From positions 1-44,285 of the forward strand of contig JAOPYM010000055.1 in NCBI GenBank assembly GCA_025964615.1: DNA of 44,285 bases. Reading direction: 5' to 3'. Both the position numbers and the translations under genes were made by a program. The DNA comes from Actinomycetes bacterium. GTDB lineage: Bacteria; Actinomycetota; Actinomycetes; Streptosporangiales; Streptosporangiaceae. Below the pieces are notes generated by a model. The model saw only the letters and a list, made by a program, of their open reading frames with translations, did not search any database and was not told the origin of the DNA. Shown one piece after another: positions 2,620 to 39,145 of this stretch. Numbering within the stretch: position 1 is the stretch's first letter; every line of letters begins with the position of its first letter.

Positions 2620-3939
2620 TCACTCTCCTTCGGTCGTACGGTCACGGTTTCTCCGGCCGGGTATACGCAGGCTCCTCGGCCTGAGCAGCGGAATGGCGCC
2701 GCCCATGACCTTAATCAGGATCGCGAGTGCGATCAGCGGCGGTACGTAGATCAGCCAGTTCACCGGGTTGCTCAGCGGACCCCGCTGGGAGGTGTTTCGC
2801 AGCGCCACCGGGGGTGCGGGGGTCTGGGACGGCAGCGGCGCGTCCACGCTCTGCGCGGACAGGGTCGAGGTGGTGCCGTTCGGCGCGACCGGCATCGAGA
2901 TCCCCGGGCAGGCCGGTACGGACCCGACCGTCGGGAGCGGCAGCGGGCTCTTGTACTCCAGGGCGGGCTTGGGACCCTGCAGGGTGATGACGAAGTCGAT
3001 GTTCAGGTTCGACTTGCCGTTCACCTTCGGGGTGATCTCGTTGAGCACCCTGGTGAGCTGCGGTGAGGTCTGCGACTCGTACCGCAGGGAGTCCATCGCC
3101 TTCTGCGAGAGCGCGACCGGCAGCGCCGCGCTGAGGGACTGCAGGATGCACTCGTTGGCCGGCATGCTCGCCTGGAGCAGCTGGTTGAACCGGCTGATCA
3201 GATCCGGTGCCTGATCGCGGAGTGCGACCAGGTTGGCGCTGTTGCGTGCGAGCGTGTCGGTGAAGCCGGTCAGGTTGTCGAGCCCGGTGCCGAGCTCCCC
3301 GCTGTGCGTGGCGAGGGTGCCGCTGATCTCGGTGAGCTGCCCGACCAGGCTGTTGAGCAGTTCGGTGTTCTGGCCGAACGTGGAGGTGATCTGGCTGCTG
3401 GAGTCCAGGATCTGCGCCAGCGACTGGGACCTGCCGTTCCAGCCCAGCGCCAGCTCGTGGGTGAGGGTGTGCAGGTCGGCGGCGTTGAGTCCCTGCACGG
3501 CCCTGTTGGCCGCCGCGAACAGCGAGCTGTAGGAGACCGCCACGCTGGTCCGCGACACCGGGATGACGGCGCCGGCGCGCATCGGCGGCCCGCCGGTGAC
3601 CCCGGCGGGCAGCGACAGGTCGACGTACGGCTCGCCGATCGCGGACTTGCGGCCCGCGGCGGCGACGACGTTGTCCGGGATCGACGCACCACGGTCGATG
3701 TCGAGGACGGCGACGACCTTGTGGTCGCCGAGGTGCACCGACTTGATCTTCCCGACCGCGACCCCGAGGTAGGCGACGTCGAAGTTGGGCTGCAGCCCCG
3801 GCGACGACTCGAACTCGGCGTTGATCTGGAATGGCTTGGTGAGGGCGTCGAACTTGATGACGTTGCCGAGCGCCCACACGGTCATGACCACGCCGAGTAC
3901 CGCGAAGACGATCAGGTTGGCCCAGATCCGCTTGCTCAC
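2620..3939 (-). CDS. mceF: Mce-family protein, MceF position
   Basis: Sixth Mce protein, 439 aa. An N-terminal anchor (LIVFAVLGVVMTVWALG) is followed by an MlaD/Mce domain at about residues 38-115 (FDVAYLGVAVGKIKSV, AIGEPYVDLSLP) and a long amphipathic helical region to about residue 280. Such domains form a hexameric ring and helical tube that conducts lipids across the envelope. Unlike its siblings it has a second hydrophobic segment near the C-terminus (LIYVPPLIALAILIKV) before a basic tail, so both ends may be membrane-anchored. It overlaps mceE by 4 bp. Substrate is unknown; steroids or fatty acids are the known cargoes in mycobacteria. Confidence 0.88.
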   Translation of the reverse strand: MSKRIWANLIVFAVLGVVMTVWALGNVIKFDALTKPFQINAEFESSPGLQPNFDVAYLGVAVGKIKSVHLGDHKVVAVLDIDRGASIPDNVVAAAGRKSAIGEPYVDLSLPAGVTGGPPMRAGAVIPVSRTSVAVSYSSLFAAANRAVQGLNAADLHTLTHELALGWNGRSQSLAQILDSSSQITSTFGQNTELLNSLVGQLTEISGTLATHSGELGTGLDNLTGFTDTLARNSANLVALRDQAPDLISRFNQLLQASMPANECILQSLSAALPVALSQKAMDSLRYESQTSPQLTRVLNEITPKVNGKSNLNIDFVITLQGPKPALEYKSPLPLPTVGSVPACPGISMPVAPNGTTSTLSAQSVDAPLPSQTPAPPVALRNTSQRGPLSNPVNWLIYVPPLIALAILIKVMGGAIPLLRPRSLRIPGRRNRDRTTEGE

Positions 3940-29664: not shown

Positions 29665-30774
29665 ATGGGGAGGGTGGTGAAACGGGCGTTCAAATACCGC
29701 TTCTGCCCGTCCCCCGAACAGGCCCGGGAGCTTTCGCGCACGTTCGGTTGCGTCCGCCTGGTCTACAACAAGGCCCTCGAGGAACGCACCCGCGCGTACA
29801 CCGTCGAGGGCCGCAAGGTCTCCTACGTGGAGTCCTCGGCGCTCCTGACCGAGTGGAAGAGAACCGAGGGCTTGGCGTTTCTGAACGAGGTGTCGTCGGT
29901 GCCGCTCCAGCAGGGCCTGCGCCATCTTCAGGCCGGGTTCGCGAACTTCTTCGCCAAACGCGCCAAGTACCCGACGTTCAAGTCGAAGAAGAAATCCCAG
30001 GCGTCGGCTGAATACACCCGCTCCGGGTTCCGGTGGCGTGACGGCGCCTTGACGCTGGCGAAGATGAGCGAGCCGCTGAACATCGTGTGGTCGCGTCCGC
30101 TTCCCGAGGGCGCGCAGCCGTCCACGGTCACCGTGTCGTGCGACGCGGCGGGGCGCTGGCATGTGTCGATCCTGGTCGAGGACACCATCGCCCGCCTGGA
30201 CCCCGCCGCCCACGCGGTCGGTGTGGACGCTGGGATCACCTCCCTGGTCACCCTGTCGACCGGCGAGAAGATCACCAACCCCAAGCATGAACGCCGCGAC
30301 CGCAAACGGCTGGCCAAGGCCCAGCGGGAGCTGACCCGCAAGGCCAAGGGCTCCAACAACCGGCGCAAGGCCCGGCTGAAGGTCGCCCGCGTGCATGCGC
30401 GGATCACCGACCGGCGGCGGGACTTCCTGCATAAGCTGACCACCCGTCTCGTCCGTGAGAACCAAACGGTCGTGATCGAGGACCTGTCCGTTCGTAACAT
30501 GGTCGGCAACCACAGCCTGGCCCGCGCCATCTCCGACGCCGCGTGGCGGGATATGCGCGGCATGCTGGAGTACAAGTGCTCCTGGTACGGGCGTGAGCTG
30601 ATCGCGGTGGACCGCTGGTTCCCGAGCAGCAAGCTGTGCTCGGGGTGCGGAACCATCGCGGGCAAGATGCCACTGAACATCCGCGACTGGGTGTGCGCCG
30701 CCTGTGGTGTGACCCACGACCGGGATGTGAACGCCGCGAAGAACATCCTCGCCGCCGGGCTGGCGGAGAGGTGA
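29665..30774 (+). CDS. tnpB: TnpB, IS605-family RNA-guided nuclease
   Basis: A 369-aa TnpB with a complete catalytic set. The N-terminal segment (FKYRFCPSPEQARELSRTFG, RLVYNKALEER) is the conserved wedge/REC start. RuvC residues are Asp188 (AVGVDAGITSLV), Glu272 (VVIEDLSVRNM) and Asp354 (THDRDVNAAKNI). A zinc ribbon uses Cys325, Cys328, Cys344 and Cys347 (KLCSGCG, WVCAACG). Known TnpBs are guided by an RNA from their own 3' end and help retain the transposon. The frame is undamaged, so recent insertion or selection is likely. Confidence 0.93.
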   Translation: MGRVVKRAFKYRFCPSPEQARELSRTFGCVRLVYNKALEERTRAYTVEGRKVSYVESSALLTEWKRTEGLAFLNEVSSVPLQQGLRHLQAGFANFFAKRAKYPTFKSKKKSQASAEYTRSGFRWRDGALTLAKMSEPLNIVWSRPLPEGAQPSTVTVSCDAAGRWHVSILVEDTIARLDPAAHAVGVDAGITSLVTLSTGEKITNPKHERRDRKRLAKAQRELTRKAKGSNNRRKARLKVARVHARITDRRRDFLHKLTTRLVRENQTVVIEDLSVRNMVGNHSLARAISDAAWRDMRGMLEYKCSWYGRELIAVDRWFPSSKLCSGCGTIAGKMPLNIRDWVCAACGVTHDRDVNAAKNILAAGLAER

Positions 30775-31739: not shown

Positions 31740-31931
31740 TGAAGAGCGAGGCCACCAACGCTGGAATCGTTCCTCTACTGCAGCGGCTCGTGGAACCGGT
31801 GCGCGGCGCAGCTGCATGTCCACGTGAACACACTTCGCTATCGAATCCGCCGAATAGAGGAACTCACCGGCCGGGATCTCGGCACACTGGAGAACCGGGT
31901 GGATCTCTTCCTGGCCCTGCGGGCCACGTAG
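31740..31931 (+). pseudogene. PucR-family regulator remnant, C-terminal HTH only
   Basis: From CTG 31761 to TAG 31929-31931 the plus strand reads a PucR C-terminal helix-turn-helix without interruption: LESFLYCSGSWNRCAAQLHV, then HVNTLRYRIRRIEELTGRDL, then RVDLFLALRAT. An in-frame TGA lies shortly upstream at about 31738 and there is no start codon. PucR proteins are normally 400-550 aa, so about 85-90% of the gene is gone. Its position, divergent from the OHCU decarboxylase gene, is where the activator or repressor of the purine operon normally sits. Confidence 0.82.
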
Positions 31932-31938
31932 CGGTTCT

Positions 31939-32052
31939 TCAGCAGCAGTGCACGCGCGGGCCGGTCGCCCATGCGGCCGCCGTACTCGACATCGGAACGG
32001 AAATCGTGAGTGCGGCGATGAAGACAATGATGAGGGCGGCCGACCGCTTCAT
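31939..32052 (-). CDS. Candidate small secreted peptide, 37 aa
   Basis: ATG 32052, with AAAGG 7-8 nt upstream, opens a 37-codon frame ending TGA at 31939. The peptide is a textbook signal sequence: basic start MKRS, hydrophobic AALIIVFIAALTISVP, small-residue region SSTAAA, giving a predicted mature piece of about ten residues (WATGPRVHCC) that ends in two Cys. It is divergent from an HTH-TPR regulator gene only 55 bp away. That geometry resembles peptide-pheromone/receptor pairs (RRNPP type), but no homologue is recognised. It could also be a non-functional chance ORF or a lipoprotein-like fragment. Confidence 0.5.
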   Translation of the reverse strand: MKRSAALIIVFIAALTISVPMSSTAAAWATGPRVHCC

Positions 32053-32107
32053 GTGATGACCTTTCCCGTGCGGGCTCATTGTGGTTAATTAGTTACAGGG
32101 AGCAATA
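32053..32107. promoter_or_regulatory. Divergent promoter region of the peptide and HTH-TPR genes
   Basis: Only 55 bp separate the two starts. It is locally AT-rich (GTGGTTAATTAGTTAC around 32081-32096, containing the palindrome TAATTA) and contains AGGGAG 7 nt before the regulator ATG. Promoters of both genes must overlap here or lie inside the opposite gene, so the regulator could control both. Confidence 0.4.
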
Positions 32108-33418
32108 ATGCCAGGTCAAGAGAGTCTGGGGCAGCGCATCCGCTTGCTGCGGATCCGTAAGGGTGTCAGCCAGGCACAGCTGGCCTTCCCCGAGCTTTCC
32201 GACAGTTACATCTCATTGATCGAAAGCGACAAGCGGATCCCCGCTCCCAGCGTGATCGACCTGCTGGCCCGCAAACTCGAGTGCTCCGCCACGTACCTCG
32301 TCAGCGGGGTCAGCGAGGACATCGCCGACGAGCTGCGGGTGACCCTGGAGTACGCCGAGATCGCCCTGCAGAACGGGGCCGCGAACGAGGCCCGGGCCAG
32401 GTTCGGCGAGGTACTGGTCAGCTCGGACGCCGTCGCCCTGCCCGACCTCATGCACCAGGCCCGCTGGGGTCACGCGCTCGCGCTGGAGGCCGCGGGCGAC
32501 CTGGAGGCGGCGATCCAGGAGCTGCGTTCGCTGACCGCCGAGGCCTCCCTGGAGGCCGACCGGGACCACTGGTCCAAGGTGCACGTCGCGCTCAGCCGGT
32601 GCCTGCGCGACCGCGGCGATGTCAGCGAGAGCGTGCAGGTCGCGGAGGACGCACTGCGCAGGCTGACCGCAGCCGGTGCCGAGTTCACCGATGCCGCCGT
32701 ACACCTGGGCGCGACCCTGCTCGCCTCCTTCATCGAGCGCAGTGACCTGGTGCGGGCCCACCAGCTGGCCGAACAGCTGGTCGAGCGCGCCGAGCGGATC
32801 GGCAGCCCGAAGGCCAGGCTGGCCGCCTACTGGGAGGCCGCGTTCGTCGCCGAGATCCGCGGCGAGTACGAGGAGGGCGTGGCGCTCGCCGAACGGGCGC
32901 TGACGCTGCTCGGTGAGGAGGACGACCCGCGCAACCTCGGCCGGCTCCGCCTCGCCTATGCGAGCCTGCTGCTGCGGGCCCGTCCGCACGAGGCCGACAA
33001 GGCCAGGGAACTGCTGCTCCGGGTCCGCCCGGAAATCGAGGCCAGCGCGGCGGGCGAGATCGACGTGGCCCTGTGCCTGACCGAACTGGCCCGCGCGGAG
33101 ACCGCCCTCGGCCGGCCGTCGGAGGCCATCGACCTGGCCAAGGAGGCCATCACCACACTCGGCGAGGCCCCCCGGCGGGCCGCCGCGTGGGCGCACACCG
33201 TGCTGGGCGAGGCGTACGTCAGGCTCGGCCGCCGCGGCGAGGCGGTCGACGCGCTGACCACCGCGGCCACCTACCTGGAGGAGATGGAGTCGTCCCGCGA
33301 CGCCGCCCAGGCCTGGTTCGACCTGGCCGAGCTGCTCGGCGAGACCGGCGACCCGGGGTCCTCGGAGGGGCAGCGGCTGGCCGCCTACCGGCGTGCCCTG
33401 ACCTGCGTGGGGCTGTAA
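32108..33418 (+). CDS. HTH (XRE) - TPR transcriptional regulator
   Basis: A 436-aa cytoplasmic regulator. Residues about 7-66 are an XRE-type helix-turn-helix (LGQRIRLLRIRKGVSQAQLA, then SDSYISLIESDKRIPAPSVI). The remaining ~365 residues are a solenoid of tetratricopeptide-like repeats (e.g. HALALEAAGDLEAAIQEL, AAFVAEIRGEYEEGVALAER, HTVLGEAYVRLGRRGEAVDA). This is the architecture of RRNPP peptide receptors in Firmicutes and of many orphan actinobacterial regulators. The ATG has AGGGAG 7 nt upstream. Next to it, divergently, is a 37-codon secreted-peptide candidate that could be its ligand (inference). Confidence 0.87.
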   Translation: MPGQESLGQRIRLLRIRKGVSQAQLAFPELSDSYISLIESDKRIPAPSVIDLLARKLECSATYLVSGVSEDIADELRVTLEYAEIALQNGAANEARARFGEVLVSSDAVALPDLMHQARWGHALALEAAGDLEAAIQELRSLTAEASLEADRDHWSKVHVALSRCLRDRGDVSESVQVAEDALRRLTAAGAEFTDAAVHLGATLLASFIERSDLVRAHQLAEQLVERAERIGSPKARLAAYWEAAFVAEIRGEYEEGVALAERALTLLGEEDDPRNLGRLRLAYASLLLRARPHEADKARELLLRVRPEIEASAAGEIDVALCLTELARAETALGRPSEAIDLAKEAITTLGEAPRRAAAWAHTVLGEAYVRLGRRGEAVDALTTAATYLEEMESSRDAAQAWFDLAELLGETGDPGSSEGQRLAAYRRALTCVGL

Positions 33419-33467: not shown

Positions 33468-34811
33468 ATGTTCGGATTGGTGCGGCCGTGCAGGCACGGG
33501 ATGTGCGCGTCGTTGTTCAAGGAGTGGATGGCGCATCTGTGCGGGCTCTGCCTGACGTTGCGCGGCGAGCACGGGCAGTCCGCCCGGCTGGTGACCAACT
33601 ACGACGGGCTCCTGGTGTCGGTGCTGGTCGAGGCGCAGGCCCCTGACAGGTCTCCGCACCGCAAGGCGGGGCCGTGCGCGCTGCGTGGTTTCCAGACCGC
33701 CTCCGTGGTGTCCGCACAGGCCTCAGGGGCGCGGCTCGCGGCGGGTGTGTCGCTGCTGCTGGCGGCGGGCAAGACCCGCGACCACATCGCCGACCGGGAC
33801 GGGGCGTACGCGCGGCGCCTGGTCGCCGCCACCGCGGGTCACGTCGCCTCGCGCTGGGACTCGGCCGGGGGTACGACCAGCGCGTCGGTCGGGTTCGACC
33901 CCTCCGTCCTGCGGGACGCGGTCGCGCGGCAGGCCCTCCTGGAGTCCTCGGGTGGGCTCACCCTGCTCGAGCTCACCGAACCCACCGAGACGGCGGTGGC
34001 CGCCGCGTTCGCGCACACCGCGGTCCTCGCCGGTACGCCTTCCAATGCTGAGACGCTGGCCGAGGCGGGGCGGTTCTTCGGGCGGCTGGCCCACCTCATC
34101 GACGCCGTCGAGGACCTGGAGGCCGACCGGGCGGCCGGGGCGTACAACCCGCTGCTCGCGACCGGCACGTCGCTCGCGGAGGCTCGCCGGCACTGCGACG
34201 CGGCGCTGCACGGCCTGCGGCTGGCCGTCGCCGACCTCGACCTGGTCGACCGGCGCCTGGTGAAGGCCCTGCTCGACCGTGAGGTCGGCCGTTCCGTCGA
34301 CCAGGTCTTCGCCCAGTACGGCCCGCCCCAAGCGCAAGCCCCCGGCCCCGGCCCCCAAGGTCCCGGCTCCCAAGGCCCCGGTCCCGGCTCCCAAGGTCCC
34401 GGTCCCCAAGGTCCCGGTCCCTATGGTCCCGGTCCTTATGGTCCCGGTCCTTATGGTCCTGGTCCGGGTGGGCCTTATGGTTTCGGCCAAGGCGGTCCCT
34501 ATGGCCCCGGTCCTGGTGGGCCTTACGGTCCCGGTCCTTACGGTCCCGGTCCTGGCGGTCCTGGCGGGCCGTACGGTCCGTGGCCGCCGCAGGGGCCGCC
34601 GCCCGGTCCCGGACGGCCCAACTGGGGCCTGATCTGCCTGGCCGGCGCGGCGGCGTTCTGCACCTGCGGGCTCTATCAGCCGCCGTGGAGCTCCCACCGC
34701 AACCAGGGCTGTGGGGACCGCTGCGTCTGCACCCGCTCCTGCGGCGACTGTGGCTGCGACGGTTGTGACGGCTGCTGTGACTGCTGTGACTGTTGCGACT
34801 GCGATTGCTGA
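33468..34811 (+). CDS. DUF5685 protein with Gly/Pro repeat and Cys-rich tail
   Basis: A 447-aa protein. The first ~285 residues are a DUF5685 domain: MFGLVRPCRHGMCASLFKEW, HLCGLCLTLRGEHGQSARL, TNYDGLLVSVLVEAQ, and the acidic LIDAVEDLEADRAAGAYNPL. Next is a ~100-residue Gly/Pro/Tyr-rich linker with PYGPG-type repeats, a short hydrophobic piece (LICLAGAAAFCTCGLY), and a tail with 15 Cys in the last 33 residues (CGDCGCDGCDGCCDCC and on). Conserved N-terminal Cys may bind metal too. Function is unknown; the family is actinobacterial. The tail suggests metal or Fe-S binding or redox cross-linking (inference). Confidence 0.82.
   Translation: MFGLVRPCRHGMCASLFKEWMAHLCGLCLTLRGEHGQSARLVTNYDGLLVSVLVEAQAPDRSPHRKAGPCALRGFQTASVVSAQASGARLAAGVSLLLAAGKTRDHIADRDGAYARRLVAATAGHVASRWDSAGGTTSASVGFDPSVLRDAVARQALLESSGGLTLLELTEPTETAVAAAFAHTAVLAGTPSNAETLAEAGRFFGRLAHLIDAVEDLEADRAAGAYNPLLATGTSLAEARRHCDAALHGLRLAVADLDLVDRRLVKALLDREVGRSVDQVFAQYGPPQAQAPGPGPQGPGSQGPGPGSQGPGPQGPGPYGPGPYGPGPYGPGPGGPYGFGQGGPYGPGPGGPYGPGPYGPGPGGPGGPYGPWPPQGPPPGPGRPNWGLICLAGAAAFCTCGLYQPPWSSHRNQGCGDRCVCTRSCGDCGCDGCDGCCDCCDCCDCDC
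34321..34624 (+). repeat. Tandem Gly/Pro/Tyr-coding repeats in the DUF5685 gene
   Basis: An irregular array of short units, best seen as GGTCCCGGTCCTTAT repeated near 34412-34456 and again in variants to about 34600, encoding PGPQG then PGPYG and GGPYG repeats. Units of 15 bp and multiples are likely to vary in number between strains. Confidence 0.8.
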
Positions 34812-36599: not shown

Positions 36600-37148
36600 A
36601 TGGCTATGACTCTGAGTAATCGACTGACCGCGCGCGTGGGCCTGATCGCAGCGATCATCGTCGGCTGTGGCATGTTCCTCGTGGCCCCGGCCTCCGCCCA
36701 TACCAGCCTGCTGAGCAGCGACCCGGCCGAGAACGCCCAGGTGGTCTCGCTGTCCCAGGTCACATTGCGGTTCAGCGAGAGCGTGCAGCGGATCGGCATC
36801 ACGGTGCGGGTTCTGGACTCCGCCGGTACCGCGCACCAGACGGGCGCCCCGCAGGTCGCCGGCTTCATGGTGACCCAGGGGGTGACCGCCGGCCTGACGC
36901 CCGGCGCGTACCGGACGGTCTACCGGGTGGTGGCGTCGGACGGGCACGTGGCCACCGGCGAGGTGCCCTTCACGATCACCGGTGCCATTGACGAGGCCGC
37001 GGCCCAGGCCCCGGGCACCCCGGCGGCGACGGCCGGTCAGCCCTCCAAGAACGGCTCCTCCCGCTGGGTCATGGTCTTCAGCGGCCTGTTCATCGGCATC
37101 GGCATCGGCGGGGCCATGGTCTTCATGCGCAACAGGAGACCACAGTGA
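36600..37148 (+). CDS. copC: Copper resistance protein CopC
   Basis: A 182-aa exported copper-binding protein. The signal peptide ends VAPASA, leaving His34 as the mature N-terminus (HTSLLSSDPAENAQV), a typical Cu(II) ligand; the second is in VVASDGHVATGEVPFTI. The Greek-key CopC fold spans about 34-130, and a C-terminal membrane anchor follows (WVMVFSGLFIGIGIGG). This CopC-plus-anchor form delivers copper at the outer face of the membrane. Start ATG 36600; ATG 36606 is possible. Its stop overlaps the copD-ctaG start. Confidence 0.9.
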   Translation: MAMTLSNRLTARVGLIAAIIVGCGMFLVAPASAHTSLLSSDPAENAQVVSLSQVTLRFSESVQRIGITVRVLDSAGTAHQTGAPQVAGFMVTQGVTAGLTPGAYRTVYRVVASDGHVATGEVPFTITGAIDEAAAQAPGTPAATAGQPSKNGSSRWVMVFSGLFIGIGIGGAMVFMRNRRPQ

Positions 37149-39145
37149 ACAGATCCCGCGCGGTGGTCCTGACCGCCGTCACGGCGGCGGCGGCCCTGGT
37201 GATCGCGCTGGTCGCCGGAGGTGCGGTCGCCGAGAAGGTCATCCCCGGCCTCGGCGACGCCGGTGCGCTGACCCGCTGGGGGCTGCCCATCGCCCGGATG
37301 GCGATGAACCTGGGCGCGGCCCTGACCGTGGGGGCGCTGCTGATGGCGGCGGCGCTGCTGCCCTCGGTCAAGGGCAGGCTCTCCGCGGACGCGATCCGCT
37401 ATGTACGGGCCGGGTCCTGGCTGGCGGCCGGGTGGGCCACCGCCGCCGCGGCCACCCTGGTCCTCACCGTTGCCGACATCCTCGGCGAACCGGTCTCGCA
37501 GGTGCTGGTGGGCAATGAGCTGAGCAGCTACGTCGGGCAGCTCCCGCAGGGCACCGCGCTGATGCTGGTGATCCTGCTCACCGTGGTCATCGCGCTGCTC
37601 GGCCGTACGACGGTCACGGCGGGCGCCACGCTCGGGCTGCTCGCAGCCGCGGTCATCGCCGTACTCCCGCCACCGCTCACCGGGCACTCCGCCTCCTCGC
37701 CCAACCACTCGCTCGCCGTCACCGGGGTGGCGCTGCACATCGGAGCGGTGGTCCCCTGGGTGGGCGGGCTCGCCATCCTCGCGTGGCACGCCCTCGGCAA
37801 GGGGGACAGGCTCGGCCTGGCCGCGGCGCGGTTCAGCCGGATGGCGCTGTACTGCTACGTTGTCGTCGGCATCAGCGGGGCCGTCAACGCGGTCACCCGG
37901 CTGCCCGACCCGGCCGAGCTGTTCACCAGCGCGTACGGACGGCTGATCCTGGTCAAGGCCATCGCATTCGCGGTGCTCGGCTGGTTCGGCTGGCTGCACC
38001 GCACCCGTACCCTTCCCGCAGTGGCCGAGGGCAGGCCCTATGCCTTCGCCCGGCTGGCCGCCGTCGAGACGGCGGTGATGGCGGGCACGATGGGCGTCGC
38101 GGTGGCGCTGGCCCGTACCGCCCCGCCCGCGGTCTCCGCCGGGGTGGATCCCGTCAAGGACCTGCTCGGCTATGACCTGCCGCCCGCGATCACGGCGGTG
38201 CGGCTTGCGACGATGTGGCGGCTCGACCTCTTCTTCGCCGCCGTGGTGATCGTCCTCGGCGGTGCCTACATAGGCGGTCTCGTGCGGTTGCGCCGACGCG
38301 GCGACGCGTGGCCCGTCGGCCGGACCGCCGCGTGGTTCACCGGGCTGCTGACGATCGTGCTCGCGACGATGAGCGGGATCGGGACGTACGCCCCAGTGCT
38401 GTTCAGCACGCACATGATCCAGCACATGACCCTCGCCATGCTGAGCCCGATCTTCCTGGTGCTCGGCGGCCCGGTCACGCTCGCGCTACGCGCCCTGAAG
38501 CCCGCGGCGGTGAAGGACGACCGGGGGCCGCGCGAGTGGCTCACCATCGTCCTGCACAGCCGGTTCACCAAGGTGATCGGGCATCCCGCGGTCGCGACGG
38601 TGATCTTCGTGGGCAGTACCTACGTGCTGTACTTCAGCCCGCTGTTCGAGTCGCTGATGCGGGGCCATCTCGGCCACATCGCGATGACCTCGCACTTCCT
38701 GCTGTCCGGGTCGTTGTTCTACTGGGTCCTCATCGGGGTCGACCCGGCGCCGCACAAGCCCCCCTACGCCGCCCGGATCCTGATCCTCTTCGTCACCATG
38801 CCCTTCCACGCGTTCTTCGGCATCGCGCTGATGAACACCAACTCGCTGGCGAACAACTGGTACACCTCCCTCGGCCGGACCTGGGGCACCTCGATCGCCC
38901 AGGACATCCACACGGGCGGCTCGATCGCCTGGGCGTTCGGCGAGATTCCCACCCTGATCGTCCTCATCGCCCTGGTCTTCCAGTGGTTCGTCGACGAGCA
39001 GCGGACGGCGATCCGGCTCGACCGCAAGGCGGACCGGGCCACGGCCAACCAGGAGAACAGCGACCTCGACGACTACAACGACTACCTGGCCTCCCTCGAT
39101 CGGCGGGGCGGCCGGGCGGATCTCCCTCGCCCGGGGGAGACCTGA
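37145..39145 (+). CDS. CopD-CtaG fusion: copper import and oxidase assembly
   Basis: A 666-aa multi-pass membrane protein. The N-terminal half has a CopD copper-import domain (about 185-330: VTGVALHIGAVVPWVGGLAI, FSRMALYCYVVVGISGAVNA). The C-terminal half (about 355-630) is a CtaG/Caa3_CtaG domain with conserved His in STHMIQHMTLAML and MRGHLGHIAMTSHF, needed to insert Cu into cytochrome oxidase. Fusions like this are common in actinobacteria, so CopC could hand copper to it for respiration. GTG 37145 overlaps the copC stop by 4 bases. Confidence 0.92.
   Translation: MNRSRAVVLTAVTAAAALVIALVAGGAVAEKVIPGLGDAGALTRWGLPIARMAMNLGAALTVGALLMAAALLPSVKGRLSADAIRYVRAGSWLAAGWATAAAATLVLTVADILGEPVSQVLVGNELSSYVGQLPQGTALMLVILLTVVIALLGRTTVTAGATLGLLAAAVIAVLPPPLTGHSASSPNHSLAVTGVALHIGAVVPWVGGLAILAWHALGKGDRLGLAAARFSRMALYCYVVVGISGAVNAVTRLPDPAELFTSAYGRLILVKAIAFAVLGWFGWLHRTRTLPAVAEGRPYAFARLAAVETAVMAGTMGVAVALARTAPPAVSAGVDPVKDLLGYDLPPAITAVRLATMWRLDLFFAAVVIVLGGAYIGGLVRLRRRGDAWPVGRTAAWFTGLLTIVLATMSGIGTYAPVLFSTHMIQHMTLAMLSPIFLVLGGPVTLALRALKPAAVKDDRGPREWLTIVLHSRFTKVIGHPAVATVIFVGSTYVLYFSPLFESLMRGHLGHIAMTSHFLLSGSLFYWVLIGVDPAPHKPPYAARILILFVTMPFHAFFGIALMNTNSLANNWYTSLGRTWGTSIAQDIHTGGSIAWAFGEIPTLIVLIALVFQWFVDEQRTAIRLDRKADRATANQENSDLDDYNDYLASLDRRGGRADLPRPGET

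Follow-up and report, generated by a model that had tools for sequence, protein, structure and literature searches.

A signal-peptide ORF divergent from an HTH-TPR regulator in Actinomycetes: a candidate RRNPP-like peptide-sensing pair

Does a 37-residue ORF with a signal peptide, located 55 bp from a divergently oriented gene for an HTH-TPR regulator, encode a pheromone that is sensed by this regulator? The question arises from a stretch of 44,285 nucleotides from an actinomycete of the Streptosporangiaceae (contig JAOPYM010000055.1), here called the window. Quorum signals of actinobacteria are typically small molecules made by enzymes, with oligopeptide signals being assigned to Firmicutes (PMC10075063), and surveys of RRNPP systems have been confined to Firmicutes (PMC9765709). 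Based on comparisons of the locus to its relatives combined with profile searches and structure prediction, we propose that the two genes form an autoinducing peptide system, RRNPP-like, in Actinomycetota. We place the probability of this reading at about 0.72; binding, export, re-import and targets are inferred, and no binding, expression or secretion data are available. The features of the locus, in window coordinates, are the following.

31824-31931, plus strand: remnant of the 3' part of pucR, a regulator gene of purine catabolism, covering the DNA-binding end alone and convergent with the peptide gene
31939..32052, minus strand: propeptide gene, 37 aa, MKRSAALIIVFIAALTISVPMSSTAAAWATGPRVHCC followed by the stop (from translation)
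31939-31941, minus strand: stop codon of the propeptide gene
31942..31962, minus strand: heptapeptide GPRVHCC, the putative mature signal, invariant in six species
32053..32107, both genes: divergent intergenic region, 55 bp, as the regulator ATG lies at 32108
32060..32066, minus strand: ribosome-binding site GGAAAGG, 7 nt ahead of the propeptide ATG (from sequence)
32108..33418, plus strand: regulator and putative peptide receptor, 436 aa (from Pfam, AlphaFold2, profile and fold matches), with an N-terminal HTH_3 domain (about residues 8-66) and nine TPR-like helix pairs (residues 70-433)
36600-37148, plus strand: CopC gene
37145-39145, plus strand: fused CopD/CtaG-like gene

The coordinates and lengths were reproduced as an earlier note on this DNA had given them, with translation, the presence of a ribosome site (GGAAAGG) and the intergenic distance all in agreement, and the observation of a gene pair for a predicted secreted peptide and an HTH-TPR regulator is confirmed. 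The propeptide divides into MKRSAALIIVFIAALTISVPMSSTAAA and WATGPRVHCC, i.e. a basic n-region, a hydrophobic core, an AxA-type site and a short mature end. Signal peptides were called using a simple hydrophobicity rule and not by SignalP, and the Sec-export features of the propeptide are present by that rule only. Purine-rich ribosome sites occur at the same position in most relatives of the gene, and members of the peptide family range from 37 to 62 aa.

Conservation provides the principal evidence for a functional peptide. In the subfamily of the window (subfamily A), a divergent signal-peptide ORF ending in GPRVHCC adjoins the orthologous regulator in two MAGs (L001 and L002) and in Actinocorallia and a close relative (L003, L008 and L062). 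A pattern search for exact GPRVHCC followed by a stop recovered 6 of the 347 genomes of the order, all six beside the orthologous regulator, while the reversed control pattern gave no match in the same 347 genomes. Across the six species the last seven residues are 100% identical, as compared to only about 17% for the signal-peptide part, and when eight overlapping pairs are pooled, the last seven codons display 31 synonymous differences against 0 non-synonymous ones. The note had conceded that its proposal would fail if the ORF were not kept beside orthologous regulators or lacked a coding-type substitution pattern; neither proved to be the case, and the possible peptide-sensing pair that it suggested is supported by conservation, by substitution pattern and by architecture, with sensing itself remaining an inference.

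The arrangement extends well beyond this subfamily. A divergent signal-peptide ORF is present at 90 of 187 non-identical regulator homologues, spread over five family groups of the class; 76 of these ORFs end in Cys-Cys and 14 belong to a related cysteine-less clade (ends such as LGWNHPD). The chance rate was taken from the peptide-less homologues and not from random genes: among the 97 homologues without a peptide, only three ORFs resembling a signal-peptide gene occur in the corresponding zone, and no CC end is among them. At 40-48% identity, the homologues of subfamily B (L079-L119) carry the divergent ORF at all 41 loci. In a second sample of 30 genomes from two genera the regulator was detected in 29, each accompanied by an ORF ending in CC (29/29), and in a class-wide sample the regulators of family groups f11, f16, f19 and f25 likewise have a divergent ORF with this end. 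Peptide classes cluster on the regulator tree, requiring 8 changes against 51 in shuffles.

The two subfamilies evolve in opposite ways, the end being frozen and the signal peptide drifting in subfamily A, whereas in subfamily B the signal peptide is kept and the end is hypervariable. In the Nonomuraea-like group g40, the genus being identified through a peptide identical to that of N. gerenzanensis (whose orthologue L222 has the end MTGDAGCC), identity amounts to 48% in the signal peptide and to only 15% at residues -10 to -3, against 100% for the CC; the corresponding values for g30 are 64%, 11% and 100%. The Nonomuraea-like group comprises 27 different six-residue ends among 28 species. This pattern in subfamily B is as expected of diversifying, species-specific pheromone codes, if the ORFs are indeed pheromone genes. 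At the level of predicted genes, the comparisons establish that a signal-peptide ORF with a strongly selected C-terminal end is kept divergent from an HTH-TPR regulator in several families of Actinomycetes, and that the predicted end diversifies between species in two genera as well as in the related cysteine-less clade. The latter, which includes Streptosporangium, has lost the CC and mostly displays a W(N/G/E)xP-type end (L084, L097, L101, L102, L105, L107-L113, L116 and L147); hence, the Cys pair is not indispensable.

For the regulator, the HTH_3, TPR_12, TPR_2 and TPR_8 models exceed their Pfam cut-offs, and the AlphaFold2 model (mean pLDDT 88.8) is all-helical, with an HTH domain followed by about nine TPR helix pairs. 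Relatives measure about 427-482 aa, and the genome collection holds 59 of them at 71-85% identity, the majority in Actinomadura. A profile built from 29 regulators and run against solved structures (PDB) matched PlcR (E 1.4e-8, residues 4-188, across the HTH and the first repeats) and, in the TPR region, NprR (E 8e-8) and RapH (E 4e-4); ComR was matched in the HTH domain only. The 50 best Foldseek matches are TPR proteins generally, with PlcR in complex with PapR (PlcR:PapR7:DNA) as the sole named HTH-TPR regulator. The Rgg/PlcR/PrgX-type architecture that the note had read from the sequence accordingly stands as an HTH-TPR arrangement, for which the profile finds PlcR, NprR and RapH and the fold finds PlcR:PapR. 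However, designed and eukaryotic TPRs score equally well in the same profile search and equal PlcR in the fold match, and the fold alone is therefore no proof of peptide sensing. Shared ancestry with the RRNPP receptors is likely for the predicted fold, but cannot be regarded as proven since repeat proteins match one another widely. No Rgg or PrgX model of Pfam or NCBIfam matched the regulator, and no RRNPP model is among its NCBIfam matches, the best of which by score is the NsdA family (NF053720; 44.2 bits, under the curated cut-off of 75).

In TPR proteins, helix A is the side that usually lines the groove. The ratio of helix A to helix B diversity is 0.85-0.88 in three peptide-bearing clades as compared to 0.50 in peptide-less Actinomadura, with non-overlapping bootstrap ranges, and the HTH is nearly invariant in peptide-bearing clades (0.05-0.17 of mean diversity). 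The higher relative variability of the putative groove side is compatible with peptide sensing, yet no more than suggestive, as the clades also differ by descent. Partial Mantel tests for co-divergence of peptide end and groove gave mixed results that are not groove-specific.

Comparisons to established systems place the pair closest to the RRNPP scheme. Its published signature demands a receptor of 250-500 aa with TPRs, an adjacent propeptide of 10-100 aa, a gap of -60 to 400 bp and Sec/SignalP export (PMC10075063); the pair satisfies the length, TPR and adjacency criteria, with a receptor of 436 aa in which TPR models are matched behind an N-terminal HTH, a propeptide of 37 aa and a gap of 55 bp, and the export criterion by the simple hydrophobicity rule only. 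All peptide-bearing loci found belong to one actinobacterial class, so that occurrence in Firmicutes/Bacillota, if taken as a criterion, is not fulfilled, which reflects survey coverage and not mechanism. PlcR-PapR of the Bacillus cereus group resembles the pair in that an HTH-TPR regulator adjoins a small propeptide; PapR is of the Sec type and supplies its last seven residues as ligand, to which the predicted signal peptide and the putative signal GPRVHCC would correspond here, but PlcR measures about 290 aa as compared to 436 aa and about nine TPR pairs here, and the window peptide gene is divergent, ends in Cys-Cys and belongs to Actinomycetota. NprR-NprX and Rap-Phr likewise combine a small exported propeptide with an adjacent receptor, and NprR and RapH are the matches recovered by our profile; their peptide genes lie downstream of the receptor in the same orientation, the peptides have no sequence likeness to that of the window, and Rap, unlike the window regulator, lacks an HTH domain. 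A divergent or adjacent small propeptide, an HTH-TPR receptor and a species-specific C-terminal code are shared with Rgg-SHP, ComR-ComS and PrgX, from which the pair differs in that SHP and PrgQ are without a SignalP-type Sec signal (PMC10075063). The NsdA family of Streptomyces also consists of actinobacterial HTH-TPR regulators, but its description includes no partner peptide and the window regulator falls below its cut-off. An earlier report of the peptide/regulator pair was not found in the literature searched, which excluded subscription journals and preprints.

We propose that the pair would operate as follows. The propeptide would be exported by Sec and cleaved after the AxA site, and further trimming would leave roughly the last 7 residues, GPRVHCC in the window, as the signal. 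Re-import may occur, for instance, via an oligopeptide ABC transporter; 19 places in the same genome match SBP_bac_5, whose solute-binding proteins serve in peptide uptake, though this is a general feature. The peptide would then bind to the cytoplasmic TPR groove in the manner of PlcR-PapR, and binding would modify HTH activity at the 55-bp divergent promoter that both genes share, and at further targets, with the sign of regulation undetermined. Neighbours such as the CopC/CopD genes are candidates for such targets, although their adjacency may be plain synteny. The gap is 48-66 bp in most peptide-bearing loci, and the 55-bp region must hold overlapping control of both genes; the operator has not been located, and a promoter scan detected no consensus promoter in the intergenic region of the window. 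A TTGAC on the peptide strand, within the opening codons of the regulator gene, occurs at 6/6 peptide-bearing and 1/63 peptide-less loci of subfamily A, but at just 16/57 CC loci of subfamily B, which rules it out as a general element. An inverted repeat, TTGGACT ... AGTCCAA, between the peptide and regulator genes of L151 and L160 is a candidate operator for family group f19.

Genes around the pair run in the order hydroxyisourate hydrolase/OHCU decarboxylase, PucR, the peptide on the opposite strand and the regulator; CopC and CopD come next in the window, as they do in many Streptosporangiaceae. Full-length PucR is found at the site of the remnant in L001, L002, L003, L008 and L219; a TnpB-like transposon gene is present at 29665-30774 of the window. 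Two genes separate the regulator from CopC/CopD in the window, while these are directly adjacent in L210-L214, L218, L220 and L222 (Streptosporangiaceae). The peptide is absent at most regulator loci of Actinomadura and Thermomonospora. In Actinomadura the neighbours are often kept, with 35 of the 55 peptide-less loci retaining PucR sequence and 35 retaining CopD within the stretch examined, and PucR and the regulator abut as the peptide gene is gone. The arrangement is most simply read as an apparent secondary loss of the predicted peptide gene with the receptor kept. A search for GPRVHCC that tolerated a single mismatch gave no match in 15 Actinomadura-group (g55) and nine other peptide-less genomes, both positive controls being recovered, and relocation of a gene with the same end is rejected for the genomes sampled. 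Since Actinomadura keeps the receptor without the adjacent peptide, which counts against the proposed system, the receptor has a separate role or senses a peptide from elsewhere. At Actinomadura loci such as L004-L059 the helix A residues are nearly invariant and window-like, as if the same ligand were still selected for (an orphan or eavesdropping receptor).

Other explanations of the small ORF have to be weighed against the proposed signal. Many spurious ORFs occur in GC-rich DNA, but conservation, placement, ribosome sites and substitution pattern are all contrary to a chance reading frame, and the motif search (6/347), the placement (90/187) and the 31:0 synonymous pattern rule it out, leaving a negligible residual likelihood. 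That the peptide is instead a secreted effector, i.e. a small antimicrobial or bacteriocin-like product whose gene is merely controlled by a TPR regulator sensing something else, is unlikely, even though fast-changing ends of small secreted peptides would fit bacteriocins too and divergent regulators are common beside genes for bacteriocin-like small peptides. No immunity, transporter or modification gene recurs beside the peptide; what surrounds it is PucR, purine genes and CopC/CopD, all of which persist upon peptide loss, and there is one peptide per genome at a fixed place, unlike the distribution of bacteriocin genes.

The Cys-Cys end, here His-Cys-Cys, could also bind copper or report thiol redox, with the regulator controlling the nearby CopC/CopD. 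Vicinal cysteines bind Cu(I), and in the window, as at most of the Streptosporangiaceae loci that were read, the regulator has CopC/CopD downstream of it. However, the cysteine-less peptide clade retains CopC/CopD (L213), as does peptide-less Actinomadura, and the f19, f11 and f25 peptides have CC with no CopC/CopD neighbour detected. This independent variation weakens the idea, which we consider improbable, and since neither tracks the other in either direction, we regard the copper neighbourhood as synteny or a possible target rather than as the reason for the peptide. A role as leader or arrest peptide, with either translation of the ORF (Cys codons) or its stalling at the Sec translocon governing a neighbouring gene, is very improbable. 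Cysteine-rich leaders are known in actinobacteria, and in arrest peptides, as in subfamily A, a signal sequence is combined with a C-terminal motif that is conserved. Yet most intact loci have no same-strand gene after the ORF, PucR converging from the other side (L001-L003, L008, L211, L218 and L219; read in relatives because pucR of the window is eroded), and the same-strand downstream gene that a leader calls for is thereby missing. The end is moreover hypervariable in subfamily B, and with CC alone fixed it can be argued not to be an arrest motif in function. No RNA family (Rfam) match was found in the region.

With the autoinducing peptide system as the preferred reading, we lean slightly towards the broader view that the pair represents a widespread and unrecognised pheromone family of Actinomycetota, in which Sec-exported propeptides with hypervariable, mostly CC ends would signal to their own HTH-TPR receptors in species-specific codes, and in which Actinomadura would hold signal-less or eavesdropping receivers. 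If such a family of peptides and receptors runs through Nonomuraea, Streptosporangium, Actinocorallia and several further families, these antibiotic producers would possess a language of peptides. Inducers that can be synthesized and applied directly could then be tested on silent gene clusters and development, and the joint divergence of pheromone and receptor specificities could be studied in a second independent arena. The fixed Cys-Cys end, if the reading is true, is chemistry unusual among RRNPP peptides and poses the question of whether free thiols, a vicinal disulfide, a dimer or a metal complex is formed.

Further observations concern genes near the pair and more distant regulators. 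The product of the gene after the regulator (33468-34811, plus strand) begins with a cysteine-bearing N-terminal domain, continues as an extended low-complexity region rich in GPY/GPG and closes with a Cys-rich C-terminal tail (..CGDCGCDGCDGCCDCCDCCDCDC). A second HTH-TPR regulator of the same genome (L061, contig C225; 35-37% identical) has no adjoining signal-peptide ORF, and the upstream DNA of its orthologues (L123-L135) is strongly conserved. As to mobile copies, an unannotated phage record contains one match at 36% identity, and a single weak HTH match came from viral contigs. Regulator homologues on Streptomyces plasmids (35-38%) are without a divergent peptide. On the Streptomyces goshikiensis plasmid NZ_CP108058.1 (L223), an HTH-TPR regulator with 37% identity has downstream of it a 68-aa signal-peptide protein of unknown function (3351-3557), in the vicinity of a BTAD regulator; the two may represent a separate peptide-regulator arrangement.
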